This document shows, piece by piece, positions 723-43,680 of a stretch of DNA of 64,000 nt (the stretch's first letter is position 1; the number at the start of each line of letters is the position of its first letter). A program made the position numbers and the translations under genes. This DNA comes from Ashinkailepas kermadecensis (Eukaryota > Arthropoda > Thecostraca > Neolepadidae): positions 62,001-126,000 of the forward strand of contig JAOTOM010004379.1 of assembly GCA_034440615.1 (NCBI GenBank), written 5' to 3'. The notes under the pieces were generated by a model. It made no database searches and was not told the origin of the DNA. It saw only the letters and a list, made by a program, of their open reading frames with translations.

Positions 723-795
723 CCAGCCGATTGGAAATAACGCAGTCGATGCGCCCTTAAGCCCAAATAACCAACCAACCAGCCGATTGGAAATA
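723..795 (+). mobile_element. Miniature hairpin retroposon, 5'-truncated copy, with target-site duplication
   Basis: A 39-bp insert (740-778) carries CGCAGTCGATGCGCCC followed by an AACCAACCAA-type tail. It is bracketed by a perfect 17-bp direct repeat, CCAGCCGATTGGAAATA, at 723-739 and 779-795. It lacks the 5' half of the hairpin seen in the other copies, so it is probably 5'-truncated. See the copies near 2.4, 18.2, 23.4, 24.6, 28.4, 36.0 and 42.9 kb. Confidence 0.8.
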
Positions 796-1199
796 GCGCG
801 CCACGTCTGTCGGTGCAATTGCGTAAAGTGCGGCGGCTCCGTGAACCTCTCTGGACCGCTCGCCGTGACGGCTGAGGTATGAGCCGGCTGGCGCGTCAAT
901 TGCGGCGCGCCTGAATTTCACCGACTCTGCGTCAGTGTCACCGACGTGGGCGCGCTGCTAATGCGCCAGCCGACGTATCAATTCAGCCGGCCGCGCCACA
1001 TTCGGCCGCCTCGAACTCTGTCGATCGGCGGCGGCCGTAGCTCACGTGGGCAGCGTCTCACCTTCTCCGGCTGGCACGATGGTGGACAAATGTTGGCCAT
1101 GTGTCGTCGTCTTGTCGCGGCTGCCTTTGGTGGCGGCCCCGCTGGCCGGGCTGTGTTACCGGCGCAGTACGGCCCGCTGGCCAGCCGTCCCCGCTGCAC

Positions 1200-1445
1200 T
1201 GGCGAGTTGCACAGCGTGCCGTTGCCGTGCCGGTGCTGTGCGAGTGCTGTGCCGGTGCTGTGCCGGTACTGTGCTTGTTGACAGTGTGCTGTTGCCGTGC
1301 CGGTGCTGTGCCGGTGCTGTGCCTGTTGACAGTGTGCTGCTGCCGTGCTGTTGCCGTGCCGGTGCTGTGTCGGCTGACAGTTTGCTGTTGCTGTGCCGGT
1401 GGTCGGGCGGTCAGCGTGCTGCTGTTGCGTCAGTTGACAGTGTGC
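1200..1445. repeat. Irregular GCCGGTGCTGT repeat
   Basis: Loose tandem copies of TGCCGGTGCTGTG and TTGACAGTGTGCTG with variable spacing, grading into the next array. No coding signal. Confidence 0.75.
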
Positions 1446-1477
1446 GCCTATCAACTGACGCAACAGTTGCCAGTTGC

Positions 1478-1940
1478 TTCTTCGGTGGTCAGTGTGTTGC
1501 TTCGTCGGTGGTCGGTGGTCAGTGTGTTGCTTCGTCGGTGGTCGGTAGTCAGTGTGTTGCTTCGTCGGTGGTCGGTGTGTTGTTTCGTCGGTGGTCAGTG
1601 TGTTGCTTCGTCGGTGACCAGTGTGTTGCTCCGTCGGTGGTCAGTGTGTTGCTTCGTCCGTGGTCAGTGTGTTGCTCCGTCGGTGGTCAGTGTGTTGCTT
1701 CGTCCGTGGTCAGTGTGTTGCTCCGTCGGTGGTCAGTGTGTTGCTTCGTCCGTGGTCAGTGTGTTGCTCCGTCGGTGGTCAGTGTGTTGCTCCGTCGGTG
1801 GTCAGTGTGTTGCTTCGTCGGTGACCAGTGTGTTGCTCCGTCGGTGGTCAGTGTGTTGCTTCGTCCGTGGTCAGTGTGTTGCTCCGTCGGTGGTCAGTGT
1901 GTTGCTTCGTCGCTGGTCAGTGTGTTGCCCCCGTGCCGGT
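1478..1940. repeat. 23-bp minisatellite
   Basis: About 20 copies of a 23-bp unit built on GTCAGTGTGTTGCTTCGTCG, with CTCCGTCGG and CGTCCGTGG variants. The long plus-strand ORFs over this stretch are repeat artefacts. Confidence 0.95.
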
Positions 1941-2400
1941 GACCAGTGTGCTGTTGGCCTGACGGACGGGGTTTCGCTGCGGTGATGGCGATTGAATATG
2001 CAGTGGCGAGGTACCCAGTGCTGCTAGCATGCAACCTGTCAGAAATATTCAGTAGCTGTGTCAGCGTCGGAGCCGGATCGGCGGTCGTCCCTGGGACGAC
2101 TTGACGACTTACTCTGTTCTCTGACACGGATCGTAGGTGCTTGTCAAAGTCATCGCATGCTGACAATATCGGTTGCCAGCGTTTGTCAGTGGCCATCGGT
2201 TCCATCTAAGAGGACGAACTGCGCTGTTATGGAGCGTCAGGATCTGGCCAGTGCTTCCTCGTCAGGATATGAGCCTAGAAAAGGCCTGTCCACTCTGTTA
2301 TCACCGCACACTTATCTGAGGTCTATCATGTGCAGTACGTGGCAAGCTTGCATTTAGACCATAGGTTCGCCCTTCCCCCATAGCCCCGTTCTTTCTGATG

Positions 2401-2479
2401 CCCTACGCCGTTAGTTAGTTATTGTGGTTTAGGGGCGCATCGACTGCACAGGTCATATAGCGCCCACCCTACGCCGTTA
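2401..2479 (-). mobile_element. Miniature hairpin retroposon with 13-bp target-site duplication
   Basis: On the minus strand the 53-bp insert (2414-2466) starts TGGGCGCTATATGACC, continues through CAGTCGATGCGCCCC and ends in a CAATAACTAAC tail. The flanks are a perfect direct repeat, CCCTACGCCGTTA, at 2401-2413 and 2467-2479. GGGCGC and GCGCCC can pair to close a hairpin. This is the only copy found in inverse orientation. Confidence 0.85.
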
Positions 2480-2639
2480 TGCACAGGTAATAGCCAATAT
2501 GTATTTGTGAACCTGAAATCGGAGAAAAGCGTTCATGAACACGTTTCACGGTGGTCGTTATTCTTGCAATTTGATCAACTCTATAAATAACGTAAGTGCG
2601 CAAGACCAGACTGATTGGGCGCGGCATAACCACACTATG

Positions 2640-3150
2640 TGCCCGCCACCGAGCTCCGAAGGTCAATGAATCTTCCAGCCCGACGGTGGCGACATCTGCG
2701 ACCTGCAAGGTTGCTGGGAGGGCGGCGGTTCGGAGAAGGTGGGGAGCCATCTTTGGCGTCCACCGGGGCGATAGCTCGGGCGCCGATTGCCGTCTCGCTG
2801 GCCGCTGATCGAGGATCGGTCCGTGCAGACGACCGTTCGCCATCGTACATGGTGCACGACGTCGGTGCTGCAGAGGGGCCGGGTGTGTCCACTGCCCTAT
2901 TGGGGTGGCCGATGCTATCGTCGCCTGTTCGACCCACGGTGGTCGACCTTGCCGGATGGCGTCGACACCGCCGTCGTCACCGTCCGTGTCACGTCACGGG
3001 CTGCCGCGCCGTGGCCGATCTGCGGCCACACGACCCCCTCCCGACATGGCGTGCAGCTGGCGGCTGAAGATGGTGCGGGGGCGGCCGCTGTCCCGTCACG
3101 TGACTGCTCACTGGCGACAACCGTTCAGTCACGTGACTGTACGTTTTTTG
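2640..3150. other. GC-rich segment, possibly coding, unassigned
   Basis: A clearly G/C-rich island in A/T-rich surroundings with overlapping open frames on both strands. A plus-strand frame from about 2865 has G/C-ending codons and several Cys (VCPLPYWGG, PWPICGH) and lies behind a GCTGCAG acceptor-like site. I recognise no family and no convincing donor. It could be an upstream exon of the 7.9-kb gene or unrelated. Confidence 0.2.
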
Positions 3151-3252
3151 TATGCTTCCGTCACCCATGGTCAGGCGACCAAGAGTGTTCCCCCAACGAA
3201 TCCAAGCATCATATTCACACTTAAGTGCATTAGCATGTTGTGACACCCCTAG

Positions 3253-4183
3253 TTAACACGCGCCCTGGAGGGCCTCTGAGAATTACGCGCACTGGAGGGG
3301 GGGGGGGCGGATTCCGCCCCCCCCCCTAAGATCTCGGCTCCTAGTAAAGCTGGAGGAACGAAATTCGCAGGGTGGATGGGCACGGTAGTGAACTCTATTG
3401 TGTGCAATTTTCGTGACCTTAGGTCAATATCTTCAAGGTCAAATGAGGTCAGATTGGCAAAATTTTCCGGTTTTGCGTGACTTGGCTCGTCATCGTTATG
3501 GATCGCTGTGATTGTGTTTAAATGCTCAAAAATGGGCATCAATGATGTTTTGGACATTACTAATGATGCAATGCAGATGCTAGACTCAACATTTGACCTC
3601 AGGTCACCTATATAGCACCACTTGATCAGGTCAGTTACCTGTTCCAGTTACCGGAACCGGCCGCCCGCCCGACTACTCCGTCGGGCAGCTCGGAGCAATC
3701 GGCTTCGTGAAGAAGGGAGTGAAGTACATGAATAAAGTATGGAAACGCAATGACAAACAGTACAAATGACAGCCAGTAGTGCATTTATGGCAACATTCCA
3801 GTTGATCAAGTTTGGTTTCATTAACCTGTCATGAACTTGACCTGACTTGACCTTGGTGACCTAACATGACCTTGAAACTATACAGCATATCAATATGCAT
3901 CAAACAAGTCGCTAGTGTTGCCTAGAACACTTCCCTTTTGTCAGTATACTGGAAGCGCATCAGCGCCGATTTTTGTGGTCTGGCGCTATAACATTTTTTT
4001 ACTTTAGCGGCCCCTAACTTGAAAATTTTCGGCCGATTTCCATTTTTCTTACTTTAAACGATGCGCCGTTCATTTCTAAGCGGGTACACCGAACATCGCG
4101 TATATCGACCGGTAAAATCTGCAGTTATTTGCGAAAAACCGGAGGGGTGGGCGGATTACGCCCCCCTCCAGTGCGCGTGTTAA
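3253..4183. mobile_element. TTAA-flanked inverted-repeat element (piggyBac-like MITE)
   Basis: Both ends are TTAA (3253-3256 and 4180-4183) followed inwards by inverted termini, CACGCGCCCTGGAGGG at the left and, as reverse complement, CACGCGCACTGGAGGGGGG at the right. The left end has a second copy of the terminus at about 3283. No transposase is encoded, so the element is non-autonomous. A TTAA duplication is characteristic of the piggyBac superfamily. The assignment is by target site only. Confidence 0.6.
3414..3872. promoter_or_regulatory. Cluster of AGGTCA nuclear-receptor half-sites
   Basis: Eleven exact AGGTCA or TGACCT hexamers lie here: 3414, 3421, 3436, 3446, 3594, 3601, 3628, 3838, 3848, 3857 and 3867. 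Several form direct repeats with 4- or 3-bp spacing, notably four in a row at 3838-3872, and two form everted pairs with a 1-bp spacer. All fall inside the TTAA element. Whether any nuclear receptor binds is untested. Confidence 0.4.
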
Positions 4184-7100
4184 GAGATGGAAGGCAAAAT
4201 ACAAGCACGCAACATAGAATTAGTGACATTTGCTATTACATAGCACAGCTAAAAATAGTCGCGGGCAAAAATCCTTCCCACAGCCAAACACCGTCCCAAA
4301 GCAATATCGCCATCACCAGGATTAGTAAAATTTAGCATTCGTGCAGAGTGGGGCGTATCGTGGTCGTTGGCATGCCGGCCGTTTAAGGTTTGCACGGACG
4401 TCTGACTGCACGGACGTTTGCCCATGTGCCAGCTTGTTTCCCGATGGGAAGCAGAGAATGTAATGCTTCGGGTGGCAATAAGAAGGGATGGATGATTCTA
4501 ATAACATGGCAATCAAAGGAATACATAATGTTTCGCGAAAGTTCAATAACAACCTGATATGTATTATGCTCGCTCGTTTTCTCGTGATAAGTACAGTTTA
4601 AAAAAAAATGCTTCTTTGGTTTTAATTTGGAGCTCTTGACCTGTGAATAATTGTAACACCACTCCATCATTCAACTATCCAGCATCTCACCGTTTTATAA
4701 TTTTCTTCTAAGACAACGAATACTAGAGCGGATTTTCTTGGTCGAAAAGTGGAATGGACAAGTTTCATGTCGGGACAGACCGTATTTGTTTTGAAGTTGC
4801 ACCAGTGATTTTTAATTTTAAAGACGATGGTGGCATTTTTTTTAATCCATAAATTTTCAAAGAAGCGCCTCAGAATTCCTCGCTTTGTGATTGGTCAAAA
4901 TATATGTGACGTCACATCTGTAGAGTTCAGCGATGCTTGACTGCCGCCCATTACATCTTCCATTTGGGACGCTCCCAGTTCATAATAATCACGACAGTTT
5001 TATCTTGGATCACATCCAATCGTCAGGGGCAAATGCATCGTAGAAAACGGCGGTATTATTCTTATTTGTGCCGAGGTATATAAATGCAACTGCAAGTAAG
5101 CCAGAAACAATGTTCATCGGCCTCCCCAGGGCCGAGAAGATGAGGACGTTGTCGAACGATTCTGAACGCCGAGACAGTCCGCTGATCTCTGCCAGTGGCC
5201 CCGCTTGCTGTGACGAACATTTATATGCATATGTACCATAGACATTTACATTTTGCAAAACAACTGCAGAAACCTCAGCAGTAGTATACTTGTAATGTTT
5301 TTCTCAAGCTGAGTGAAATTCTACAATACGCCTGACATTCCATGTAAAAATTAAGCCAACAATCCTTGCCCTCCATCTAAAATCCATACCAGTTCTAGCT
5401 AATGAATCACTTCAATTTTCGATTTGATAGTCATCCCTTTTCGCATTATCTCCATCAATATCATAAAATATGGCAGCAATTGCAGAGGGCATCTTACTCA
5501 TAAAATACTCATTTTGCATCATCAAAATGCTGCTTGAAGATGTTGGATGGCATTGGCCCACACCTGCTGATCACCGATTATGTTGCTCTACACCCACCTA
5601 CCTACACATTATTGATCACGTCAGCCTACACCTGCAGGTAGCTGATCATGTATGCCTACACCTATTGATAATTGATTGCATGAACTGCAACACATGCACA
5701 ATATATATCTTCCTGCAAGGAAGTTAATTAAAATTCCACAACATGCTTGGCATTCCATGTAAAGATTAACCTGAAAACATGTGCACCTTGTTTAAAATCG
5801 TATAGCCAAATAATCCCTGCAATTTGTAATTTGATAGCAGTCCCTTTTTGCAATATCTCCATGGACATCATCAATATATTGCAGTAATTGGAGCAGGAAC
5901 CTTACCCACCCATCTTATCCATCACAATACTGCTTGAACGTATGCTATGACATCTGTACGCACCGCATTGTGCCGGACTTGAAACACAAATTATAGTTGC
6001 TGTATTACCGCCATAATAGATTACCTATCCTTCCGAGCATCATATTTTCATAAAATTGGTAGCATTTCAGTATCACAAGCCCTCGCTTTAGTATCCATGA
6101 CGCGATTCGGTTGAAAAACCTTGCATGGAATAATCCAACGTATGGTTCTCTGTGCGTTTTGGGCTTGGCTGCTTCGAGGCCCCACATATGTGACGTCACT
6201 GCTACGAGAAGGTTTTTAAATCGATGGCAACCCCTAAGTGAAATTAATAATTTATGCTGTAAATGCTTCTCCCATGAGAAAAAAAAAATATTTCAGTTTT
6301 GTCTACGAAGTATTATTACCGTTTTTTTGGGAAACCAAAAACCCATTACGTGAAACTTGTCGATTGAAAGTGGTGATTAATTCGTGTGACGTCAGACGTG
6401 CGAAGTTCCAAGGGGTTCATTTAATAATTTGCATGTGCATGGGGATAATCTAATAACCACACCGAACAAGCAGCGTTTGAACTGTCCCAACGTCTGGGAC
6501 TTTTATCACGCTGAGTTTCTTTTGAGACAATATTTGTATTTTCATGGGGTAAGTACCCCTCTGTGCTGTCACGTGGCTGTATGCTGGCGGTCGCCGTCCC
6601 GTCACGTGACACGTGACATTGGCAGCTCCTGTCCTGTCACGTGTCCGCATATGGTCTGGGGTCCTGGCGGCTGTGCACGCCATATTGAAGGCAATCGGGT
6701 CCATTCCAGTCAAATCCCAGGGTGTTTGGGAGCAGCCAGCCGGCACAAGTCCGGCTCTCGGGAGAGCCAATGATCAGATCCAATGTTGAACTGTTGAACT
6801 GCGATACGTAGGCATAGCGCATCAATACGGCCGTCACGACATGTACAGGCACACCCAGCGTCGGCCTTCGATCGTTCTGTCCATATGGTTTAAGAGTGAC
6901 ATGCATTAAACCCTAAATGTCTCGTCTTGTGTTGTCAACAATTCAACGTAGTGTGCGTGACCGAACGGTCAACTGACCTGACCCGCCCCCTAGTGGAGAC
7001 TGTATCGGAGTCGCCAGTTCGCACACACGCGTCTCGGAGGCTGTTCTCGGTAGACACACACGACTGGGTGCACTCCGACAAACATTGCTGTGGTGGTGAA

Positions 7101-7583
7101 ATGGCTGATAAGCAATCCCCCTGGACTTCGAGCCGGGAGAGACGCAACTATTCTATAAAAAATATAAACAACCGAGACAGTTCCGCCTCTCCCAGTGGTT
7201 CCGGAAGTGGCCGTAATTTTGAAGACAAAAGACCGGTGTATGTTTGCACTATATGTAACGCGGTCAGGATTATAATATTTCAAAGTTGTGGTGATTAATA
7301 TTTCCTCTCCCATACTGCCAGTGCCACCGCTACTTTGTCACTACTTGACTGTGTTTGAAAATGCGCTGGAAGTGGACAAAGCCGCATTTGTGACTTAAGC
7401 AGCATTATCATCAAATCAAAATTATGGTGCAACGTGGAAATGTTGTACGTCCCTGCGTGAGGTAAAACTAAAACTGCATTATGCTGAAGGTTGTCCCATG
7501 AAGAGGAGCGATTGTAGCTCTAAGTCAGATTTTGTTGTGGTGCTTATTTTATCCGTGCTTGTGTGTGTGAGTACGCACGTGTT
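4184..7583. other. No gene recognised
   Basis: A/T-rich sequence with short unconserved ORFs. The only visible pattern is a group of CACGTG cores in GTCACGTG contexts at 6569-6645, resembling a similar group at 3093-3137. It may be intron or 5' flank of the gene starting before 7875. Confidence 0.4.
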
Positions 7584-7868
7584 CGCCAGCTGCTCGTACC
7601 GCCGCCGCCCGCTGACGTAGTGTTCGGCCGCTGCTCGTGCCGCCGCCGCCCGCTGACGTAGTGTTCGGCCGCTGCTCGTGCCGCCGCCGCCCGCTGACGT
7701 AGTGTTCGGCCGCTGCTCGTGCCGCCGCCGCCCGCTGACGTAGTGTTCGGCCGCTTGCCGCCGCCGCCCGCTGACGTAGTGTTCGGCCGCTGCTCGTGCC
7801 GCCGCCGCCCGCTGACGTAGTGTTCGGCCGCTGCTCGTGCCGCCGCCGCCCGCTGACGTAGCGTCCTG
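7584..7868. repeat. 41-bp minisatellite abutting a splice acceptor
   Basis: Seven copies, mostly 41 bp and one shortened, each with GCTGACGTAGTGTTCGGCC and a GCCGCCGCCGCCC run. The GCTGACG motif (7611, 7652, 7693, 7734, 7770, 7811, 7852) matches the animal branch-point pattern. The last one lies about 18 nt from the acceptor AG at 7873-7874. Confidence 0.9.
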
Positions 7869-7874
7869 CCGCAG

Positions 7875-25815
<17,941 letters not shown>

Positions 25816-28370: not shown

Positions 28371-28371
28371 T

Positions 28372-28968
28372 TATTTTATTGATGCTTAAATGTGGAAAGC
28401 TGATGGGCGCTAAATGACCGAACCTGGTCGATGCGACTCAAAACTCAAATAACGAACCATGTCGAAAGCTGGTGTACATCACACAATGCTCTATTGCCAC
28501 GGTGTATGAAGCTGTACTGTGGCTCCGAATTTCTTGTGGGTAGCAGACATGACATTTTTTTACCTCCGGACGTCATTGTGCACGTGCGTCCTAGACAGGG
28601 CGCATCGTAATGGTACATCGGTATTCCAGTGTGGCCGAAGGCTTATGGACAACTGGGAAGGATCTGCTCTTCTGCTTGGATGGGCTGGCCATGGTTCCAT
28701 AGCTTAATGTATCATTCTGGGTGCACCATTCGCCAACATATTGATCCAACAAGCGAACGTCACCGCACGAGATGGTCATTGATCAGGCAATGCCTGCGCC
28801 GGCTCAGGTGCACATGTGGGGTGGACACAACGTATACGCCAGGGCTGGATTTCACCACACATGCTTCAATCCGGATTCCGCCATTATTTTATTGATGCTT
28901 ACATGTCGAAAGCTGGTGTACATCGAACAATGTTCTATTGCCACGGTGTATGAAGCTGTGCTTGCTTG
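28372..28968 (+). repeat. Direct duplication, one copy interrupted by a miniature retroposon
   Basis: Segments at about 28372-28513 and 28884-28968 share CATTATTTTATTGATGCTTA, AAGCTGGTGTACAT and CTATTGCCACGGTGTATGAA. The first copy carries the 56-bp insertion at 28403-28458; the second is uninterrupted. Confidence 0.85.
28390..28471 (+). mobile_element. Miniature hairpin retroposon with target-site duplication and visible empty site
   Basis: A 56-bp insert (28403-28458), head ATGGGCGCTAAATGACC, GGTCGATGCGAC, tail CAAATAACGAACC, between ATGTGGAAAGCTG (28390-28402) and ATGTCGAAAGCTG (28459-28471). The paralogous segment near 28908 has one copy of the target and no insert. Confidence 0.88.
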
Positions 28969-28972
28969 ATTG

Positions 28973-28978
28973 TTTATT
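28973..28978 (-). terminator. Candidate poly(A) signal for the DRC8-like gene
   Basis: AATAAA on the minus strand, about 410 bp beyond the stop codon. Position only. Confidence 0.3.
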
Positions 28979-29385
28979 CAATTGCTATTTCTAATCGGTG
29001 GTAATTATAGCAATCACATCCGGCAAATCTCCGCTACGCTAAAAAGAAGTAACTCGAACAAAGTGACATCAATTTTGTTGTTATTTAAGTAGCCTGCTTA
29101 TTCAGAGTAAATATATCCCGCCCGCGTTTTCAACTCATGAATCATGGATTGAAATTCGTCAGCTCGTAAATCCCATTGATAAATCGCAACCTAAAAGTGG
29201 AGGTGATATCGCATCCACCCCTCCTTTGTATTATCCTCGTGACTGATGCGTGCACAGTCACCTGCTGCTTACACACGACTGCGTGCGTAACAATAGCATG
29301 GGAACATGCATCGTCACACACAGTACGACTAATCACCTCTGTTGAACCTGATCGTGTCTCATCACATTGATGGTGGCGGAGTGGT

Positions 29386-29625
29386 TCACCACAATTCTGG
29401 CACCACCAACTGTTTGACGAACTCTGTGTAGCGGACTCGGCCAGAGTCCGAGGCCGGCACCACGGACACCATCTCCTCCACCTCCTCCTGGCTGAAGTGT
29501 TCGCCCTCCTCCGTCAGGATGTGCACAAGCTTGTCCTGCGGCAGAGTGCCCTCCTCTTCCTCCTTCTTCTCCGGCTTCTGCGGTCCAGGTCTCTGAACTT
29601 CGTCCTCCTTTTCCTCGGCCAAAAC
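29386..29625 (-). CDS. DRC8-like gene terminal exon
   Basis: Acceptor CATTGCAG then VLAEEKEDEVQRPGPQKPEK, an acidic/lysine-rich stretch, and DKLVHILTEEGEHFSQEEVE with the C-terminal EF-hand, ending VKQLVVPELW and a stop. Phase 0. The HILTEEGEHFSQEE block is diagnostic of EFCAB2/DRC8. Confidence 0.9.
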   Translation of the reverse strand, partial: VLAEEKEDEVQRPGPQKPEKKEEEEGTLPQDKLVHILTEEGEHFSQEEVEEMVSVVPASDSGRVRYTEFVKQLVVPELW

Positions 29626-30276
29626 CTGCAATGGTAGACGAAGGTATACAGCTGAAGTCGCTCTTCAACATTTCGTTTTTGCCAACAAACACAGGACACA
29701 AAACTTGGCGTTAAGTCTTAGAACCATTACGCATGCTCACTGAATAATTAATTTACACTAGCCACAGTTATAAACTTGCCTTCTTTTACATCTTGTACGC
29801 TTCTGACGGTTATTCAGACGACGTTGGGAGAATTCACCTGGAAAGCCCGAAGAAGCTGTTCAGCTGTGGCCGACGGGTACTTCCTGTCCTCCACGCACTG
29901 GATGATGTGTGGCATGACGGTTTCGAGCCGGATCAGACCGGGTCGACCCTCCTCTTCTAGCTGTGTCACCATCTCTTGGAGGTCGCTTTCGCTCGGGCAG
30001 CAGCCCACAGAGCGCACAAGGGTACCCAGCTCGTGTACATCGACACAGCCTGTTCCTTCAGTGTCCAGCGCCTGCGACAGATGAAGCAGGTGGTGCCACA
30101 CGCCCACACAGCCTGTGGTCCTCAGTGTCCAGCCCCTGACATACAGGAAGCAGTGATTGCCACACATCCATGCAGCCCGTGCCCTCAGTGGCCAGCGCCT
30201 GACACAGATAGAAGAGAGTCAGAGCCTGACACATAAAAAGGGAAATAAAAATAAAAAAATTTGTGTAAATAGGGGG

Positions 30277-30307
<31 letters not shown>

Positions 30308-33300: not shown

Positions 33301-34158
33301 GTCAAGGTCAAGCACGCCAAAGCTTACGCATAATGCGTGCATTTCACATTCGTCAGCGGATTGGCTTGCAGCTCTTCTCACCTGGAACAGCTTGGTGATG
33401 CGCCTCTCCAGCTGAGCTGTGAATGGATCGTACTCCTTTTGATCGCGTACACGGAACACACTGCGTGCAGAATGCACCGTTTTCATTACGTTCAGCGCCT
33501 TCTTTTCGGCGGTGCTCTTTGCTGTGGCTGAAGAACCCTCTGTTGGGATTGAGGAACCCTCTGCTGGAGCTGCTGCATCTTCGGCTCGGACAGTAGCGCC
33601 CTCGACAGAGCCGTCGACTTGAGCTGGGGCGCCCCCGACAGCGCCCTCAGTTGGAGCTGGGGCGCCATCGACAGAGGGCTGTGTCTGTCCTGCGACCGTT
33701 TCGCCGCCATCAGTGGAGGGCTGGGCTGAGAGCTGGTCTCCTGGTGGTGCCTGCCCCTCAGCCACCACCGCTGCTGTCTGCGAGCCGCCTGCTGCCGTCG
33801 GTCCCGATGTCGCCTCGGGGACGCCCTCGGGGACACCCTCGGGGACACCCTCGGAGACACCCTCGGGGACACCCTCGGAGACACCCTCGGGGACGCCCCC
33901 GGGGACACCCTCGGGGACACCCTCGGGGACACCCTCGGGGACACCCTCGGGGACACCCCCGGGGACACCCTCGGGGACACCCTCGGGGACACCCTCGGGG
34001 ACACCCTCGGCTGACTCGGCGATGACGCTCAACGGCTCCACATGTGCGCCATCGACGGCTGACGAGGTCCTGGCCACGTCGCCGTTGTCAGCAGCCGCCT
34101 GCGACGTCGGCTTTGGCGTGGTGGACTCGTCATCCGACTGCTGTGGCTCCGGCTTCAT
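29386..34158 (-). CDS. EF-hand dynein regulatory complex subunit, DRC8/EFCAB2-like (spliced)
   Basis: Three phase-0 exons join: 33382-34158, 29838-30071 and 29386-29625. The joined C-terminal part follows the EFCAB2/DRC8 pattern closely: ERRITKLFQ-ALDTEGTGCVDV, ELGTLVRSVGCCPSESDLQE, EDRKYPSATAEQLLRAFQ, LVHILTEEGEHFSQEEVEEM. DRC8 is a small calmodulin-like subunit of the nexin-dynein regulatory complex in motile cilia and sperm flagella. The EF-hand loops look poor in acidic ligands, as in other family members, so Ca binding is doubtful. The N-terminal exon adds a long low-complexity extension with EGVP repeats not present in the short vertebrate protein. Upstream candidate exons at 37041-37163 and 40365-40511 would also join in phase. 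Confidence 0.85.
29838..30071 (-). CDS. DRC8-like gene central exon
   Basis: 234 bp, phase 0 on both sides, acceptor CTGTCGCAG, donor TTCCAG|GTGAAT. Encodes ALDTEGTGCVDVHELGTLVR then SVGCCPSESDLQEMVTQLEE and EDRKYPSATAEQLLRAFQ, the first EF-hand pair with the GCCP signature. Confidence 0.92.
30100..30215 (-). repeat. Two decayed copies of the central exon's acceptor and first codons
   Basis: Immediately upstream (in gene direction) of the true acceptor lie two copies of its sequence: TGTCAG|GGGCTGGACACTGAG near 30130 and TGTCAG|GCGCTGGCCACTGAG near 30190. The outer copy still encodes ALATEGTGCMDV. Both are out of frame with the downstream true exon if spliced in phase 0. Confidence 0.8.
30216..31155. 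other. DRC8-like intron sequence with a poly(A) tract
   Basis: A run of about 27 A at 30279-30303 and a second A-rich run at 30320. Nothing else recognised. Confidence 0.5.
31164..31370. repeat. 69-bp tandem triplication
   Basis: Three copies starting at 31164, 31233 and 31302, nearly identical, beginning CGCCATACTACCGGCGATGG. The 69-bp period keeps frames open on both strands; no protein match recognised. Lies in the long DRC8-like intron. Confidence 0.95.
31375..33290. other. DRC8-like intron; nothing recognised
   Basis: A/T-rich. One isolated TCACGTGACCTAGGTCAAAG (E-box plus everted AGGTCA) at about 32031. Confidence 0.4.
33382..34158 (-). CDS. DRC8-like gene N-terminal exon with EGVP repeats
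   Basis: In the EF-hand frame from ATG at 34158; an in-frame stop lies about 50 bp further upstream. It encodes MKPEPQQSDDESTTPKPTSQ, about 15 EGVP units, a Pro/Ala/Gln-rich stretch and then RDQKEYDPFTAQLERRITKL leading to LFQ and donor CCAG|GTGAGA. Only the last 40 residues match DRC8. The start is either this ATG or a GGCAG acceptor just before it. Confidence 0.75.
33812..34012 (-). repeat. Coding 12-bp minisatellite (EGVP repeat)
   Basis: About 16 copies of a GGGGACACCCTC unit (plus strand) giving EGVP with GGVP and EGVS variants, in frame inside the DRC8-like N-terminal exon. Confidence 0.9.
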
Positions 34159-34874
34159 CTGCCGGCCTGTGGCTGTCGCCGACGCCGTCTGGCGGACATC
34201 CGTTCCATTAACCTTTGCACAGACAGGGCTCCACCCCGACTCAGAACGGGTGGCGGAGGAGAGGGATGGGTACCAATTCCCTCCCTGCTGTCTATCTCAA
34301 GACTAGAAGTGGATAGATAGGCAATAGAAGCGCCATCAGTTATTCCAAGCAGTTCTACCCAATGTTTACTGAAATCATTTGTGGAGTTGAAGTTAATGTC
34401 AAGGTCATATTGCACGATTGTGTTTTGTGTGGCATTTGTACGCTGTATCTAAAAGACCTTCCTGCTGTGATTCGTTTTCCACGAATTACGAAAAAAAATG
34501 ACTTGGACAAAATATTGCAATTAATCAATTTATATACATGTTTAGTGCTGACTTGCGTCACCTTGGATCGGTATCGCCCAATAGGTATGGTCAGCATTGG
34601 TAATCGTCCCCTACTATCTTATGGTATGGGTGGAGATAGAGAGCCAATCCAATCACCGTTAACTCGACTAAGAGATTCCGCACAAAACTTGTTAATGTCA
34701 TTTGTGAAATGGATGTCACGGTCATCGTACAAATGTTATTCTAGTTCTCGTACAATTGAGCCAGAAGTCGTCTCTCATGGATATTGATGTATTTTTTGTA
34801 GTAGTAAACCTTAACTTGAAGCCTTGTCTTTGACTGTTGGTTATGCAGTGCAAGCCAAGCGAAAAAAAAGATGA

Positions 34875-35650
34875 GCATAAAGTCATAAAGTCATAAAGTG
34901 TTTAGACTTAATAAGAGCCACAAGGGCCCATCCAGTTAATTCTGCAAATGGAAGATACCATAAGCCCGGTAAAAATACCCACCCCAACCATCACCACATC
35001 CTAAAGAAGCCATCCACCAACATCCCACACACCTATCAATGCCTATCTACCCTAGCTATCCAGCCCTATTCCCTTGATCCCTCTTAACACATGTGGATTG
35101 AATGCCTTACCAATAATTTTCAAACGCATCCATGCCGGCTTAAAGGGGTCTGTGCCGTGCACACATACTTAGCATATATCTCACCCCATCCATCACAAAT
35201 TATAACTAAAAAACAAGATTATCCTGTCCAAAAAATGTGTCCACCCTACATTTAAGTGCATTCAATAAGGAACTCCCTACAACATCAGCAGGCAGCATAT
35301 TCTACTGATCAACAACACTTTTACTGAAGACCTGTTGTCGCTTAACTGTCCTACACCTCAACTTGTCTAATCTGAATTGATGACCCCTATGTGATACTCT
35401 AAACCGAAGAGCATCATTCAAATCGACCTGATCTAGCCCTTTAACAAGTTTGTACATTTAAATCATGTCCCCGCTTAATCTCCTATACTTGAGTGAGCAC
35501 ATAGCTAATGCTATAAGCCATTCTCCATATTCTAAGTTGCATATTCCACTGATGAGTCTAGTGGCTAGTATGAAAAGGCAAAGAAGAACGCTTCTAACTA
35601 AACAAAACGGCCTATCAAGCACATCGAAGGTCAGTGTCACATGCTGATAT
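34875..35650 (-). pseudogene. Non-LTR retrotransposon 3'-end fragment
   Basis: Decayed minus-strand reading (ATRLISGICNLEYGEWLIAL, AMCSLKYRRLSGDMI) parallels the better copy at 37.8-38.1 kb. It ends in a tail with the repeated octamer TAAAGTCA and the shared GAGCCACAAGGGCCC. A 5'-truncated LINE copy with many stops. Confidence 0.6.
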
Positions 35651-36037
35651 ATGACCTATGATATGCTCAAAGTGTCATTTATAAGTTGGAGAAACACCTA
35701 AAGTTGAAAACCGTAACGAGACGGACAAATCAGCAACGGAGCCCATATTTTAGCAACGTCTTCTTCGCGCATGTTTTGATCTGATATAGCGCAGTAAAAA
35801 AAAAACGTTTGTGTCAGTAACCTGAACCAGTCTTGACCTAAAAATGTCACGGCATACCCAAAATCGATGTGGCATAAGGTATTGGAAATGTTTGCAGCCT
35901 TTCGCAAACCGCTCCGCAGATATATGAACGCATGCCGTGAGGGCGGACTCCTACCCATCCCCATCCGTGCGAGAAGTAGTAAGAAACCCGGCGAATGCCC
36001 TCCCTCGAACACGATTTATGCTAACATATGTAGCTCC

Positions 36038-36104
36038 ATGTGTGCTTGGTAGCTGCATGACCGACGCAGTCGATGCGCCCCTAAACTCTAATGTGTGCTT
36101 GGTA
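36038..36104 (+). mobile_element. Miniature hairpin retroposon with perfect 14-bp target-site duplication
   Basis: A 39-bp insert (36052-36090) starting GCTGCATGACC and containing CGCAGTCGATGCGCCCC and CTAAACTCTA, between two copies of ATGTGTGCTTGGTA (36038-36051, 36091-36104). The tail is short. Confidence 0.82.
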
Positions 36105-36754
36105 ATGCTAAAAATATTGGACAAAAGCCTGTGATTGAAAAATTATCCACTCCCAATACAGTGCATGATAGCATGAACACACGATGGTTATATTATGCGT
36201 TTTGCAAACAAGACTAGTGATCTCGCGATCGCAAAATGAGCAAATATAATTAACATTGTTCAGCGTGTACCATTTGGAAATCGAAATCAAAAGTCTACAT
36301 TGGGAAATTGAGGTGATCGACTATTGCAGACCAAAGTTTACACTGGGAGAAGCAGCTTATCGATTATCACACAGTGTGTGCTGTGCAGACGATCATTACA
36401 ACCGGGCAGCCTGACTGAACCATCGCGTCGGGCAGCTTGCCAACCATGTACACAACACTGGGCGCTCAGATCGCCGAATGCTTCCAAAAATCCGCACAGA
36501 AGCGGGGGGGGGGGCGCCGTCTGTGCTACCGAGGCATATAAAAGCTGAACGGGCTCTGGGTCGATCCAATATCACCGACTTTCCAAGCTAATCTGAGGAG
36601 TGCTGTTATGTCGCAATAGTCGGTCTGATATGGGCTGTTCGGTACCTGATTATCATAGTCGTGTGTGTTGCGATGGCGCTTAATTTGTTTCACTTTTATC
36701 TTCATGATGTGCATAAATGAAAAACCACTATTGTAGTGTGGTGAATAACCACCA

Positions 36755-36830
36755 TACACAGCGCAAATGAACTTTATGGTCCGGCACGGCACGCCTCTAA
36801 AAATCACTCCCCCTTCGGAGGGCCTTATGT
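36755..36830 (+). mobile_element. Related hairpin repeat, second subfamily
   Basis: AGCGCAAATGAACTTTATGG, TCCGGCACGGCACGCC and CTCTAAAAATCACTC follow the same hairpin-plus-tail plan as the miniature retroposon. The copy at 46232-46285 is similar. No target-site duplication seen. Confidence 0.45.
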
Positions 36831-36857
36831 GAATAGATCTATCTATCTTTCTATCAA

Positions 36858-37163
<306 letters not shown>

Positions 37164-37214
37164 CTGAAGTGCATCAACAAGTCTTAATCACTTGAGCTAT
37201 CTGTTTCTGGCTCA

Positions 37215-37452
37215 TCCATGACCAGCTATAGCAGAGACGTCATCTGGCAGGAAAGGTGGTGTCATCAAGTGGATAGGACTGACAGCTGTATACCCCGTCA
37301 CAAGCCATAGTAGATATGTCATCTGACAGGAAAGGCGGTGTCATCAGGGTGATAGGCCTACCCCGTCACAGGCCATAGTAGAGATGTCATCTGACAGGAA
37401 AGGTGGTGTCATCAAGTGGATAGAATTGACAGCTGCCTATCCGGTCACAAGA
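37215..37452. repeat. Three copies of an about 66-84-bp repeat
   Basis: Each copy has TCACAAGCCATAGTAGAGAT, GTCATCTGACAGGAAAGG and GGTGTCATCAAGTGGATAG; the middle one is shorter. Confidence 0.9.
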
Positions 37453-37569
37453 GGCGGCGAGAAGGAAACATTTTCTTTGCGTGCCGTGGCTTAGAGATTG
37501 CCAAAACTGTGCATGTGTGCAAAAAACGCACACATTTTATGAGCATGGCAGATTAAAAATATAACAGTA

Positions 37570-38145
37570 ACTCATAAAGACATAAAGACATAAAAGATCA
37601 GTACAACTATGAGCCACAAGGGCCCTTCTTGGCTGCACTCTGGACACTGAACCAGTTGTCCACCCAATCCGTCGATCAACCCTCCCTGGAATACCGAAAA
37701 ACAAGCCCCCTATTCTTATAATGATTGTCTATGCTGTTTTTAAAGATGTTTTTAAAGTGTGTTGTTACTGACAATGGTTTCTGGAAGCTGGTTCCAGTAT
37801 TCTACTACCCTGTTGGTGAAAAAAAAGAGTGTCTTAACCTTGTCCTGCTGTGATTAACTTTAATTTTGAATTGATGACCTTTAATTGCATCATTTCTGTT
37901 AAATTCAAACATTTCCCTGAGATATCCCTGTTCCTGACCATGAACAAATTTAAAGACCTCGATGAGATCTCCTCTCAGCCTTCTATATCTAAGTGAAAAC
38001 ATATTCAATTTCTTCAATCTTTCCTCATATGCCAGGTTGCCTATACCATTAACCATTTTTGTTGCCCTCTTTTGTACTCTCTCTAAAAGCCAACAATCTT
38101 TTTCATAACTAGGGGACCAAACTTGGACACAGTATTCCAACTCGT
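37570..38145 (-). pseudogene. Non-LTR retrotransposon reverse-transcriptase C-terminus
   Basis: A 111-residue minus-strand reading beginning MEYCVQVWSPSYEKDCWLLE, with RVQKRATKMVNGIGNLAYEE, RLKKLNMFSLRYRRLRGDLI and FFSPTG, typical of the C-terminal region after the LINE reverse transcriptase. It is followed by a non-coding tail ending in TTTATGTC repeats. 5'-truncated and therefore dead. Confidence 0.8.
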
Positions 38146-38149
38146 CCGA

Positions 38150-40020
38150 ATAATCACTGCGACGACAATATAGCAGCGGGGCCGGACAAGTTTAGATCAT
38201 CCACTGGTTTCCTGTAATGGTAGAAAATGTAGTCAGTATGTTGGATGTGAAGTGGACACAGCACTCCGCACCGTAACATGTATATTGAGAATGGATGCGT
38301 GTCTCAACTGCCAAGGCTGGTGTCGCTTGTGCAATGGTACTGGAAGCATCGTCCACCCAGCCATAGTCAGAGCAATTGCTCCGAACATCCGAATTTTTTT
38401 TCATTAAAATAATTCAAGCGTTTTTAAGCTAATCTTGGTAGAAGAAGCAAGGTCTATCTACTGCATACGGTATCGAGAGATTTTACCGATGAATACAGGA
38501 GCACAGACAAGGTCTGAAATATTAGCTTGGAAATGCATTTTCTGCTGCATTTATAAAGGCAAGTTCGAAATCACAAATACCACAATGTAATAACATTCGG
38601 TGTCGGATCGTTCAAGCGACAATCCAAGGACTCTTCCTTCACTGCTTCAAAAACTAACCAGTATGAGGTTTGCTCCTTGTTTAGAGGGACATACGCCAAA
38701 GGAAGTTGTATGCCTGTTGTATGTCTTCAACCCTTCTTTCATGCCTTAAATTGTCTCCTCCACATATTACTCTTCGGGATTTGGAGCGTGGCCAGAATTT
38801 TTGCTTGTTGATGTTGCTGACAACTTCCCCCCCCCCATTGACAAGCTTTTCCCTTCCTGAACGTTACTGTCTCCAAACACACACCCATTAACACATAGCC
38901 ACTACCCTTGTTTACAGATGGCATAAATAACCCTCAAATGCCAGTTGATGACCATTTCGATATCACTCGGCAAGACGGACAACCACTGAGATCCTTTCGC
39001 AAAAGGTTTGCCACTACAGACAAAATGCTCGAAGATAATGATTTAGGCAATGGAACAAGATATTGAAGTCAATTTCTTCCCACACTAACCGCTGCTAGCC
39101 GTTACTTATCTTTTTATTTCATCACGTGCTTAAAGTTCTTGGTGGAAGGTGTGTCCATCAGTCAATTAATTGAGAATTTGGGGTGAAGTGCCCGGTAGGT
39201 GAAGATCCGGAAGTGAAAAGGCAGATGGCGAAAGGGATTTGGCGAATCTCTGTAGGCAAAAACGTAGTATGCTACGTAAATACGTAGTATGCTACGTTTT
39301 TAAGGTACGTAGACGACAAAAATGTAGGCGAAATCACGGAGGTGAAATAGCAGTAGGCAAAAGCTCATGTATACGAAATCTCCGGGGGCGAAATCTCATT
39401 CAACCATGGACACATATGTCGCAACCAACACAGTGTATGTTGGTGTAAATGGGTCAAATTCTTGTACTCAACACGTGGGATCCAGTAAATGACCACAACA
39501 CCAGTGTGCAGTAAAAGTCGTGATTAAATAGTGTAGAATGTCTGCTAAAACTGGTTAAGCTCAAAGCTGCTGCTGTGACATTTTACTGACAATAACGTTT
39601 TGTCAATCGTTACAGTGTCAAATGCACTGATCGCAAGAGCTTCTATAGGAAAATTGGAGAATGATGATGGTTAAGCGTCTGATAACATTTTTAAAGAAAC
39701 ATTATCAGACAATACTAGCAACTGCCACTCTTTTCTGCTCAAACAAATACATTTCCAAATTCGTACAATTGCAATAGAAGCCTACGGCAGAAAAGTTCAT
39801 GGTTTGAGGTAGAGCATCAAATATCTATGAAATCGAATTATGGATGCCCATGCTTGATTACAAGCGAATCATAGGTATTTCTTGCTTGAACGGGGTAGTG
39901 ACAAATTGCGAAGCGTTTTTGTACTGAACAAATGACTAAGGAACTTCTTTGAAGGAAATATACCCTCGTGTTATACATTTCAAATGCTGCTGGATGTCTA
40001 GCTTTCCACCAACATCAAAA
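38150..40020. other. No gene recognised
   Basis: A/T-rich spacer. A 20-bp near-palindromic unit, ACGTAGTATGCTACGT, is repeated at about 39262-39299. Confidence 0.4.
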
Positions 40021-40364
40021 GTTCAATGAAATACATGACGACCACCGCATAACACATACCGTGCAGGGCGAGAGGCCCGCCATCCTCTTTCTAGTTGTGA
40101 AAAGCAGTAATAACTCACATCCCAAGTGTAGAATTGCCAGAATGAACCAACATACTTCTCTCCTACCGACTCCGTCATGCTCAATCTTGGTTCAGCATTA
40201 ACTTTGTTGCGTAGCTCTCCACATAGTCGGTACAAAGAACAACGCTCCTGCAGGACAATTGCGATGCAGCTAACCTGTTTGCATTCATTTATATTTCGCT
40301 CCATTTCTAACACTAAATAAAATAATGCTACGCTTTTAAGCAGGCCGGTCGGATGATAACTTAC

Positions 40365-40511
40365 CAGATACTTGGCAGCTTTCCAAACGTCCTGATGGAC
40401 TGATGAATCTGTTAACAGTCCGCTAGACGGAGCTGAAGGTGTCTCAAAGTGTTTCAACGTGCTCCAACACTCCAACCCAACCGCCACAATTCTGCCTCCG
40501 CTACAGCGCAT
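40365..40511 (-). CDS. Candidate first coding exon of a ciliary gene (possibly the DRC8-like gene)
   Basis: 49 codons from ATG at 40511, with a TAG in frame upstream, to a strong donor TATCTG|GTAAGT, phase 0. Encodes MRCSGGRIVAVGLECWSTLK, HFETPSAPSSGLLTDSSVHQ and DVWKAAKYL. I do not recognise it. It is on the same strand as the DRC8-like gene and the phase allows joining to 37041-37163. It could equally start a separate gene. The adjacent X-box argues for a ciliary product. Confidence 0.4.
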
Positions 40512-40525
40512 ATCAACAAAGCTGT

Positions 40526-40539
40526 GTTGCTATGGTAAC
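40526..40539. promoter_or_regulatory. RFX X-box
   Basis: GTTGCTATGGTAAC, two RFX half-sites with a 2-bp spacer and one base different from the common GTTGCCATGGTAAC. RFX factors drive ciliary genes through promoter-proximal X-boxes. It lies 15 bp upstream of the ATG at 40511 (minus strand). Confidence 0.6.
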
Positions 40540-40675
40540 ATTCGTCGGGCGGAGTCATATGAAGTTGGTTGGAAAGGACGGCACGGCCCAATCCAGCTGA
40601 CACATTTATTTGCAAACACATTTGACATTCGCAAACATTTAGTTCCTGCTAAAACTGAAACAAAGTTTCACTGGG

Positions 40676-40735
40676 CCAGGAAGTGCGCCCTCGAGACATT
40701 GGTGGCGCCCTCGAGACATTGGTGGCGCCCTCGGA
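40676..40735. repeat. 21-bp tandem repeat, three copies
   Basis: GCGCCCTCGAGACATTGGTG units in tandem, the last incomplete. Confidence 0.85.
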
Positions 40736-40864
40736 CATTCCATGCTTTTGGCAGCGAAACTACAACACGACATGTCGCGCACCAAGTATCGATTATAGCC
40801 GCTACTGATCATGGAATATATTTCTGCCGATTTGTTTTACCTTAATGTATTCAATGAATGCACG

Positions 40865-41235
40865 ACACACGGTCCAGCGCCGACTCAAGACCCCAATCGC
40901 ATAGCTCAGGCGCCAGCCAGGCACTAAGCCAACACGTAATGTGCCAGCGTATGGCACCAAACAGACGGCTCAGACACCGACTTAAGATACTGAATATACG
41001 GCTTGCAGGCGCTGACTTCTTAGACACCAACCACGGCTCAGGCGACGACGTTCGCTACTCAGCGAAATACAAGGCTCACGCTCCGGCGTGTGGCACTATG
41101 GAGGCGCCAACACAAGGCGCTAGGCACAGAAATTGGCGCCGACCAGATGACTACACATTTGGCTCGGACGCCAACGTAAAGCACTAACCATAGGTTAAGT
41201 CGCCGACTCAAGAAACTAAAAACACGGCTAAGCAT
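40865..41235. repeat. Highly decayed about 32-bp tandem repeat
   Basis: Recurring ACGGCTCAGGCGCCGACTCA-like and AGACACCAA-like motifs with many substitutions; an old minisatellite. Confidence 0.5.
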
Positions 41236-41239
41236 TGAC

Positions 41240-43680
41240 AAATACCATTTTTCTGCTTTAGTATTTGTGCACCTTCAAGTTGTGTAACTGGCATGTTGCA
41301 GTTTTTCTTCAGTGGCAATACCTATCTTTGGTATTCTTGCTTTGGTGCTATTATTGCCTTGTCTGCTTTCTTTTTCTTTTCATGTCCATCGGTCCATATT
41401 AACATCCACATATAGTCAGCTCTGTGGCATTACCTATGCTACGAACTCGTGTACTTGTGGGCGATACCACAGAACATCGACGATCAGTTGATCCTGGATT
41501 TAACATATTAACGTTACGAGGCAAAGTAATGCAAAACGCTGGTTGTAGCAAGGAACATGAGATATTTGTATGCTTACTGACTTTTGCTATGCATACTTTT
41601 GGCTTCACTGATGCCAAATGCTGCGACTGACCTGGAAGCTTGATATATTTGCTTATGTTGCTTTTCTTTCGAAACTGGGAGTGCTGTGACTTTAACTCAT
41701 TTATCTGGTGCTACGTTAGGGGCGTTGTAAGTCGTTGGAATTGAGGACAGTGGCACTCCTGGTCACCTAATAATGGACGGTACATCATCAAAAAAGAAGA
41801 AAAATCAAATACTGTATTCCACACTGTGCTGTTTTTACAGGAAAATTGATTTGTATTGCCTTGTTCAGCACCAACTTCGTTTTGTTGCCTGGCGGATGAT
41901 GCACAATCATACAGAGGAAATTTGTATATATGCCAGTCGACTTTTCATGAAGTGGATTTTGTTTCAACCTCGACCTCACCCCACCCCCAATTAGCCCACA
42001 TGATGGATGACATGGAGTAAACCCGCGCTAGTGGCAATGCTTAGTGGTGCGCTTTTTCTGAGGTCAAGTGGCAGCATCTAAAGCCAATGATAGGGGATGC
42101 AAGTATAAATATTCCTCTCTGTATCGATCCTACATCAATTAGGTTAATTGTTGGAAAAACAGACGTAGCATCTGTGCATCCGTCCAATGATAAACACATG
42201 GCTTCCCTCGAGCATCTTTGTCCTAAGAATGGGTGACGGTGTTGCAGTTAAGTATTCAACGACTGGCTGAGGCAAGAGCTGCGCGTACGCTTCCTACTAC
42301 AACATGACGTGAAATGTAACTGTTCCGATACCTAATAATTCCCCATTCCTCGTGCTTCCTTTTTAGGCGAGTGCTTCGACTTCGTCGTCCGTTTTTCGTT
42401 CACGTGCGGGGTGACGGGAAGATTTTCCAGCGTCCGTGTATTTGTGGCGATTTCTGGGCTGCGGCTGTTTTTCTCTGTTCTTCAACTTGTTCATCAGGAA
42501 GGTTGTTATGAACTCCGGTAAAGTGACCTTAATCTCTTTTATTTAGATCAGATGTAGTATGGGAAAGCAATATTTGCAAATTCATTTCCATAATGTTCGA
42601 TGAATGACAGCGTATGACAACGTATTTTCGCCTATGAAATGATGTACTTGAATACGTGAAGCTTAGGGCCAACCACATTTGTAGCACAGAGCTAGCAACT
42701 TAGTAGTACGATAGTACATATTTGTGCTAAGTCAAACATTGTTAGGGTGCGATGTTTGTGTTAAATCGGATGCAAAAGTACCACGAATGACCGAGCGGAC
42801 AAAATTATTGTGCCGGTTTGTTCGCAATACACGAGTCGCAAAGAACACTAGGAACCATTTCTTGACGGACGCTGTATAACCAATGCAGTTGATGAGCCAA
42901 AAAATCCTTATAACTAACTAACCATTTTTCGACAAATACAAGCCGGAAGACAAGGCGTAAGGCGTAGTAAGGCGTAGTAAGGCGATTACAGCGCCCCGCT
43001 GGCGGACCGATAAGCTTACTCCAGGATTGCTCCAATTATGGACAAATCTCATAATGTGGAGGTACATCGCAGTCGTTCCGCTGAGATTTGTTCACCGACG
43101 GACGTGCGAATAAGCACACTCTTCTTGATGCAGTGCCCACTATCGAACCTGACACTCTAAGATGGTGTACATTGGCTTTGGCGTGATTTCTGTCTCGGAG
43201 CAATGGTTTCTTCAGTCATGTCAGGCTTAGCCACATTTGTTCTACGCCTGGCTGGCCGGCAGCCATCACCGTATTGTGCCGCGGGGCCCGCGCAGTGCAG
43301 TTCCTACCATTTTGGTATTAAACAAAGATGACGGGGAGGGAACCCCCATGGCATTACGCGAAGATCGGTGAAAACCTTGGCGTCACAATCTGGCACTGAT
43401 AAATAAGAGTTAAACATACGAGAGCCACAAGTACGAATAAAAACGTAAAGAAGGAATGTCGATAGCGCGGTGCACAGTGTATGCTAACTTACTGCGGAAA
43501 AAGCATGGAGGCCATATAAAAGCAGGGAAACATATTGGGTATGAAATGTATCATAGCAGGACCGAAAATCATCCATTTACCGGTGCCGATTTAAGACGAT
43601 GCAATGACCACATCGATGAATCCGGAGAATTTCCCCACGAATAGTAGTTCTATGCTGGAAAAAAACGCTGGGTTGATGCG
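41240..43680. other. No gene recognised
   Basis: A/T-rich sequence apart from the miniature retroposon at 42854-42933. Confidence 0.4.
42854..42933 (+). mobile_element. Miniature hairpin retroposon, diverged, with target-site duplication
   Basis: A 54-bp insert (42867-42920): GGACGCTGTATAACCAATGC, AGTTGATGAGCC, tail CTTATAACTAACTA. Flanks ACCATTTCTTGAC (42854-42866) and ACCATTTTTCGAC (42921-42933) differ at two bases. Confidence 0.65.

Follow-up and report, generated by a model that had tools for sequence, protein, structure and literature searches.

A stretch of 64,000 nucleotides of the Ashinkailepas kermadecensis genome (assembly GCA_034440615.1, contig JAOTOM010004379.1, positions 62,001 to 126,000 of the forward strand; hereafter the window) carries a family of short hairpin insertions. 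The ∼57 bp unit of this family is the 3′ terminus of long interspersed nuclear elements (LINEs) that encode a reverse transcriptase and an RNase H, and it belongs to more than one LINE family, with differing upstream sequence; we regard its LINE origin as close to certain. Most solo copies of the unit start one or two bases outside the base of the hairpin and fewer start at GGGC|GCT inside the stem. Judging from sequence patterns, it is evenly balanced whether a single chain of events accounts for these solo copies, in which a trimmed or processed RNA fragment would serve as the template for target-primed reverse transcription and the hairpin would set the 5′ end.

The hairpin of the unit has two parts, an outer stem GGGCGC...GCGCCC and an inner stem GAC...GTC, and a TAAC- or AACC-type tail comes after it. 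An initial annotation of the window had described eight such insertions as hairpins with an A-rich tail; this description is right, and the hairpin folds better than shuffled sequences in all four copies tested (z of −2.4 to −5.4). The insertions themselves are real: when 76 copies from elsewhere in the genome were used to build an nhmmer model, with copies of the same insertion left in, it recovered all eight with E values of 3.4e-18 to 2.7e-7, and it also found a ninth, older and degraded copy. The best match of the model in the reversed window had an E value of only 1.2. The copies and their target-site duplications are as follows.

740..778, plus strand: solo hairpin copy with its 5′ end in the hairpin loop (E = 9.1e-11).
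723..739 and 779..795, plus strand: 5′ and 3′ target-site duplications of 740-778, 17 bp exact (CCAGCCGATTGGAAATA).
2414..2466, minus strand: solo hairpin copy with the start TGGGCGC, equal to the 3′ end of the LINE at locus L024 over the 48 bases compared in the alignment (E = 3.4e-18).
2467..2479 (TAACGGCGTAGGG) and 2401..2413, minus strand: 5′ and 3′ duplications of 2414-2466, score 13.
18189..18247, plus strand: solo hairpin copy, degraded (E = 6.3e-8).
18178..18188 and 18248..18258, plus strand: 5′ and 3′ duplications of 18189-18247, 10 of 11 bases matching.
23412..23471, plus strand: solo hairpin copy of the AAACCTG-loop allele, which also occurs behind a GTTAT prefix in L121 (E = 2.6e-16).
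23401..23411 (CTTGGTATCCC) and 23472..23482, plus strand: 5′ and 3′ duplications of 23412-23471, score 11.
24620..24676, plus strand: solo hairpin copy (E = 4e-12).
24610..24619 and 24677..24686, plus strand: 5′ and 3′ duplications of 24620-24676, 9 of 10 bases matching, score 7, not significant alone.
28403..28458, plus strand: solo hairpin copy (E = 1.3e-12).
28390..28402 and 28459..28471, plus strand: 5′ and 3′ duplications of 28403-28458, 12 of 13 bases matching.
36052..36090, plus strand: solo hairpin copy from the second start site, GCTGCATGACC, start coordinate 7 (E = 7.4e-13).
36038..36051 (ATGTGTGCTTGGTA) and 36091..36104, plus strand: 5′ and 3′ duplications of 36052-36090, 14 of 14 bases matching.
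42867..42920, plus strand: solo hairpin copy, degraded (E = 2.7e-7).
42853..42866 (AACCATTTCTTGAC) and 42920..42933 (AACCATTTTTCGAC), plus strand: 5′ and 3′ duplications of 42867-42920, first 8 bases exact, 12 of 14 by eye.
55927..55980, minus strand: ninth copy, old, without a clear duplication (E = 3e-5; duplication score 5).

Duplications were scored with +1 for a match and −2 for a mismatch, which gave 18, 13, 8, 11, 7, 10, 14 and 8 for the eight copies in order. A score of at least 8 is found for seven of the eight but for none of 72 pairings of flanks taken from different copies (maximum 7). Random window positions score at least 8 in 13% of cases because the window is full of minisatellites; since these inflate the random-position scores, the mismatched flanks are in our view the better control. 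The window is indeed very rich in minisatellites (28 rows, with periods of 12-111 and up to ∼156 copies, for example at 20390-22710 and 49493-50980) and also has three dinucleotide arrays. Duplications had been proposed around all eight insertions; the proposal clearly holds for seven, and the duplication of 24620-24676 is not significant by itself. It had also been noted that six copies begin near one point, and six of the eight do start at unit coordinates ∼0-4; the copy at 36052 starts at the second genome-wide start site and that at 740 starts inside the loop.

The 12-base word GTCGATGCGCCC occurs 12,874 times in the 908 Mb of genome searched, compared with 16 times for the reversed word. 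An 11-base core with up to two mismatches occurs 22 times in the window against a mean of 17.1 expected, which is not above chance, so that evidential weight lies only in the exact matches, the full-length model and the genome count. If the window is typical, its nine copies per 64 kb would extrapolate to ∼128,000 copies genome-wide. Four hairpin copies lie within 470 bases at C919:30893-31358 as two spaced pairs, perhaps in tandem. The exact hairpin pattern was not found in viral contigs. A ribozyme or other known structured RNA family was rejected as an identity for the unit, as the Rfam scans gave nothing credible: there were no matches in the window at gathering thresholds, and a permissive scan of 221 bases around one copy gave a single match far below the gathering score (E = 2.9).

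The unit is identified as a LINE terminus because an open reading frame 2 (ORF2) with RVT_1 and RNase_H domains ends shortly upstream of it. In a first sample of ∼268 kb, which includes the window, there were 67 matches to the hairpin unit at E < 1, the weakest of which (E up to 1) may be chance; 11 of the 67 were dropped as the same insertion, and L004 and L005 were dropped because they lie inside L009 (L numbers are our handles for genomic loci). Using tblastn with three open reading frames (ORFs) of the same genome, an ORF2 match was seen to end 57-207 bp upstream of the unit in 15 of the 67 copies (66 testable), rows at 0, 2 and 993 bp being excluded. These 15 include the three query ORFs themselves and two pairs with a common ORF or flank (L026+8185/L026+8295 and L026+9109/L028+8935). 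The longest LINE ORF (L024:5377-7776) has both RVT_1 and RNase_H, ends 100 bp before the unit and is similar to the L1 and R2 reverse transcriptases whose structures have been solved; among the matches listed, its homologues of ∼1230 amino acids have endonuclease domains too. The RNase H domain suggests that these LINEs are of the 'I-type' group. Six further copies from outside the first sample (L052, L059, L074, L092, L102 and L113) have an ORF2 match with E ≤ 4e-4 upstream of the searched motif, at 81-138 bp or nearer, L120 has one 145 bp before the motif and L067 has a weak one (E = 0.003).

The ORF2-joined copies share a conserved block from WGTTATGGGCGC onward, with G in 15/15, T in 15/15, T in 14/15 and A in 13/15 just before the hairpin; the base preceding this WGTTA block is random, and exact GTTAT is absent in three of the 15. 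An AGTTAT box ahead of the LINE hairpin can pair with ATAACT in the tail (L024 7861-7934 and L028 6356-6432), a pairing that might make the tail inaccessible or delimit the template. Six stretches were folded, and an outer helix formed by the GTTAT box with ATAAC in the tail appears in the predicted minimum-energy folds of L024 and L028 and, with a different inner fold, in L067; it is not in the folds of L021 and L020, and the L120 stretch stopped short of the tail. We read the predicted outer helix as a hint.

Several hairpin alleles are found both joined to a LINE-type prefix and solo. Besides the window copy 2414-2466, which matches the LINE end at L024 in 48/48 bases, the AAACCTG allele is solo at 23412 and GTTAT-prefixed in L121. 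The allele GATGTA..TAAAGCCCT is prefixed in L067 (the locus with the weak ORF2 match) and solo in L016+1244 and others, and the allele ATTGCA..TTTAAACCC is prefixed in L035 and L024+1780 (GTTAT prefix only) and solo, with one base different, in L037. For the allele CGAAATGACCTATGCA..CTAAACCAC the solo counterpart is either weak (L020-6850) or a little longer (L060). The short form thus most likely arises in several LINE families.

The start sites were read from copies at 98 of 100 listed genome places. As 25 of the 98 were dropped as same-flank duplicates, 73 unique copies were left, which together with five window copies give a set of 78. Fourteen of the dropped duplicates are further copies of one insertion in an amplified host repeat, of which a diverged copy (L014-2486) was kept; this one solo insertion makes up 15 of the 98 fetched copies (L002, L003, L013, L022 and others), so that the counts of GGGCGCTGTATGACC are inflated. 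Forty-five of the 78 copies are resolved by a duplication score of at least 9, for which the null rate in a near-identical test is 1.6% (0.3% for at least 10); calls within tandem repeats (L001, L039, L080 and L103) are possibly artefacts and were kept in the counts. Nineteen of the 45 start at offsets −22 or −23, that is, at T2 or A1 of ATGGGCGC, 11 start at −17 to −21 and the rest are scattered; two copies at −21 correspond to unit coordinate 3 and belong rather with the first start. If starts were placed uniformly, the first peak would have p = 7e-15. Another 40 copies, picked only for an intact 5′ arm, form a second set that was not de-duplicated (L097, L110/L125 and L122 have flanks in common with copies of the first set). 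Here the null rate of a score of at least 9 is 2.6%, 21 copies are resolved and 17 of these 21 start at unit coordinates 1-4. The other 19 comprise eight with a GTTAT prefix, one with ATTAT, two whose prefix resembles the one in the LINE at L023+9092 and eight that are unclear, three of which (L093, L094 and L106) look solo with a weak duplication.

Genome-wide counts gave the same picture of the first start. Word series were counted with NM in place of NN (the second variable base being A or C), which omits the amplified GT alleles and the AT alleles. Extending GGGCGCTNMATGACC upstream from GGG (4302 occurrences) gives 3852 for TGGG, 2609 for ATGGG and 790 for the GTTAT-prefixed form GTTATGGG; the reversed controls (GGG, T, AT, GTTAT) give 8, 5, 0 and 0. 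Over all alleles the GTTAT prefix is present in 1499 of 8832. Modelling the NM series with a loss of 3-7% per site assigns 33-39% of copies to a start at T2, 27-31% to starts from A1 to about −1 and 20-23% to LINE-joined copies; the last estimate is maybe somewhat low, since three of the 15 ORF2-joined copies do not have exact GTTAT. In an estimated 62-68% of copies with an intact 5′ arm the start lies at, or a few bases from, a single point immediately outside the base of the hairpin, which bears out the common 5′ end proposed in the initial annotation, and solo copies outnumber LINE-joined copies among them by an estimated three to one. A second series was counted for the inner start: TNMATGACC...GTCGATGCGCC occurs 3289 times genome-wide, 2993 times with GC before it, 2271 times with CGC and 1737 times with GGGCGC. 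At GGGC|GCT the count falls to 76% in one base (2993 to 2271), compared with a loss of ∼5-9% per neighbouring base, so that ∼26-30% of the GC-bearing copies start there. CpG loss could add to this fall; the other CpG base falls in the two-base step to GC, where the loss is at most 9%.

From the duplications, the tail and the LINE identity we infer that the LINE endonuclease and reverse transcriptase insert the units by target-primed reverse transcription, in agreement with the LINE-driven retroposition that had been suggested, and we likewise infer that the hairpin sets the 5′ end. For the step that defines this end we tentatively favour trimming or processing of the RNA. The upstream part of the LINE RNA would be removed from the 5′ side until the hairpin halts the removal, either by an exonuclease or by cleavage at WGTTAT|GGGCGC, the conserved border. 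The ∼57-nucleotide remnant would retain the tail and the hairpin to which, by analogy, the reverse transcriptase presumably binds, and would become a short template that the LINE-encoded enzymes could insert. The solo ends sit at the upstream side of the hairpin, the side that an activity trimming from 5′ to 3′ would reach first; this position speaks against stalling of the reverse transcriptase on the hairpin, which would leave ends on the opposite side. A more far-reaching version, in which the cut at WGTTAT|GGGCGC gives a stable hairpin RNA of ∼57 nucleotides as the main retroposition template, so that RNA processing creates a promoterless retroposon in several LINE families in parallel and this is the dominant insertion product, seems to us rather doubtful.

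Several points weigh against the RNA-remnant explanation. Trimming of the complementary DNA (cDNA) or release of the reverse transcriptase at the border predicts the same ends, and the inner GGGC|GCT start is not predicted by a simple stop at the stem base; it may point to a nuclease able to cut within the stem. Base-pair covariation of the hairpin is not above that of shuffles, so it is the folding scores and the slide control that carry the structure. The fetched places are from small contigs, a bias avoided only by the genome-wide counts. In the set of 78, 13 copies are weak, nine are unresolved and 11 are called LINE-prefixed from the prefix alone, and 19 of the second set of 40 are without a resolved duplication. 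Few plausible distal duplications were found for the 5′ ends of LINE-joined copies among 25 searched to at most 6 kb upstream.

The most serious competitor places the decision during or after cDNA synthesis, with the reverse transcriptase released at the upstream border of the hairpin or a 3′-to-5′ nuclease digesting the cDNA tail as far as the hairpin into which this strand could fold. Self-complementarity is the same in cDNA and RNA, the RNase H of the LINE could release the cDNA and a nuclease cutting some bases into the duplex could also yield the GGGC|GCT start. To judge from the start positions, however, roughly two in three insertions would on this route have to be cut back to the same one or two positions, and there is no obvious cause for release past a stem that has already been copied. 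We consider it a real possibility, if a minority one, ranking close behind the RNA remnant. The scatter of some ends (offsets −45 to +1) and the fact that the unit is a LINE 3′ end are what would be expected of ordinary random 5′ truncation, but this is contradicted by two discrete starts near the hairpin, the first of them with the p value given above, and is highly improbable. The initial annotation had itself allowed for random truncation of a known LINE or SINE: the unit is indeed part of a LINE, but the majority of copies lack the upstream LINE sequence and start at non-random points. Truncated L1 insertions are known to show microhomology between cDNA and target, which could in principle choose the start. 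At least one matching base is present in five of 24 unit-start copies, which is the chance level; this argues against an end chosen by pairing with the target and agrees with a template or cDNA whose end is defined, leaving microhomology the least credible of the explanations.

It had been proposed that the unit is a separate and complete miniature retroposon, in effect a headless short interspersed nuclear element (SINE) with its own transcription that parasitizes a LINE. The precision of the common 5′ end and the estimated three-to-one excess of solo copies among those with an intact 5′ arm would suit such an element. As the unit is a LINE 3′ end and the same alleles are both prefixed and solo, however, repeated independent births would be needed; no promoter was seen on inspection by eye, and the proposal is improbable as it stands. 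Its accompanying remark that there is no recognizable RNA polymerase III (pol III) head agrees with our searches for heads of the tRNA, 5S or 7SL type: ARAGORN found no tRNA genes in 52 loci and the window, where decayed tRNA-like heads would escape it, and Rfam gave no match in the window.

Other features were seen alongside the hairpins. At L111 a second 5′ arm interrupts a hairpin copy, as if the reverse transcriptase had switched templates inside the hairpin. An ORF in the window at 57649-58149 (minus strand) has a motif resembling that of a Penelope-like reverse transcriptase, but no match in Pfam. An exon of a TANC-like gene (HTH_TANC1, AAA lid and ankyrin repeats) lies at 15867-17300 on the plus strand; its nearest named homologues are from Limulus and Laodelphax (51-53%), and two unnamed proteins reach 75%. 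A piece of a JAB/MPN-domain protease gene lies at 59450-60193 on the minus strand.

If the 5′ end of the solo hairpins is set by processing of RNA or cDNA at the hairpin, the genome holds very many natural footprints of how LINE 3′ ends are handled. The cause of LINE 5′ truncation would then be directly testable. The footprints would suggest that an RNA of ∼57 nucleotides is enough for target-primed insertion, and they would show a way in which SINEs could originate from units that lack a promoter. The literature listings searched, which covered few subscription journals, showed no description of LINE 3′ hairpins inserted alone from a constant start point.

Among the closest parallels are the tails of stringent-type LINEs. 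Zebrafish ZfL2-1 and ZfL2-2 and eel UnaL2 resemble the LINEs described here in having a stem-loop and short repeats at the 3′ end. Passages of a study of zebrafish L2-clade LINEs describe the 3′ stem-loop of ZfL2 as bound by the ORF2 protein and essential for retrotransposition (PMC4176376). Those stem-loops are part of a LINE or SINE tail, whereas the hairpin here is mostly alone and has a precise 5′ end, its recognition by the reverse transcriptase being presumed by analogy. The solo copies share the LINE 3′ end, the tail and the target-site duplications with 5′-truncated LINE copies, but these have dispersed ends in place of two discrete start sites near a hairpin. Like SINEs with LINE-derived tails, the units are non-autonomous and short, with a LINE-type 3′ end and duplications; unlike SINEs, they begin at the hairpin itself, with no pol III-type head found in the loci and window searched. 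At ∼57 bp the unit is shorter than the shortest SINEs known to us. Bov-A is likewise a short unit derived from the 3′ end of a LINE, Bov-B, and has no promoter of its own, but it is longer than the unit here and was later joined to a tRNA head. The unit is thus neither a SINE, which is defined by its pol III head, nor an ordinary truncated LINE.

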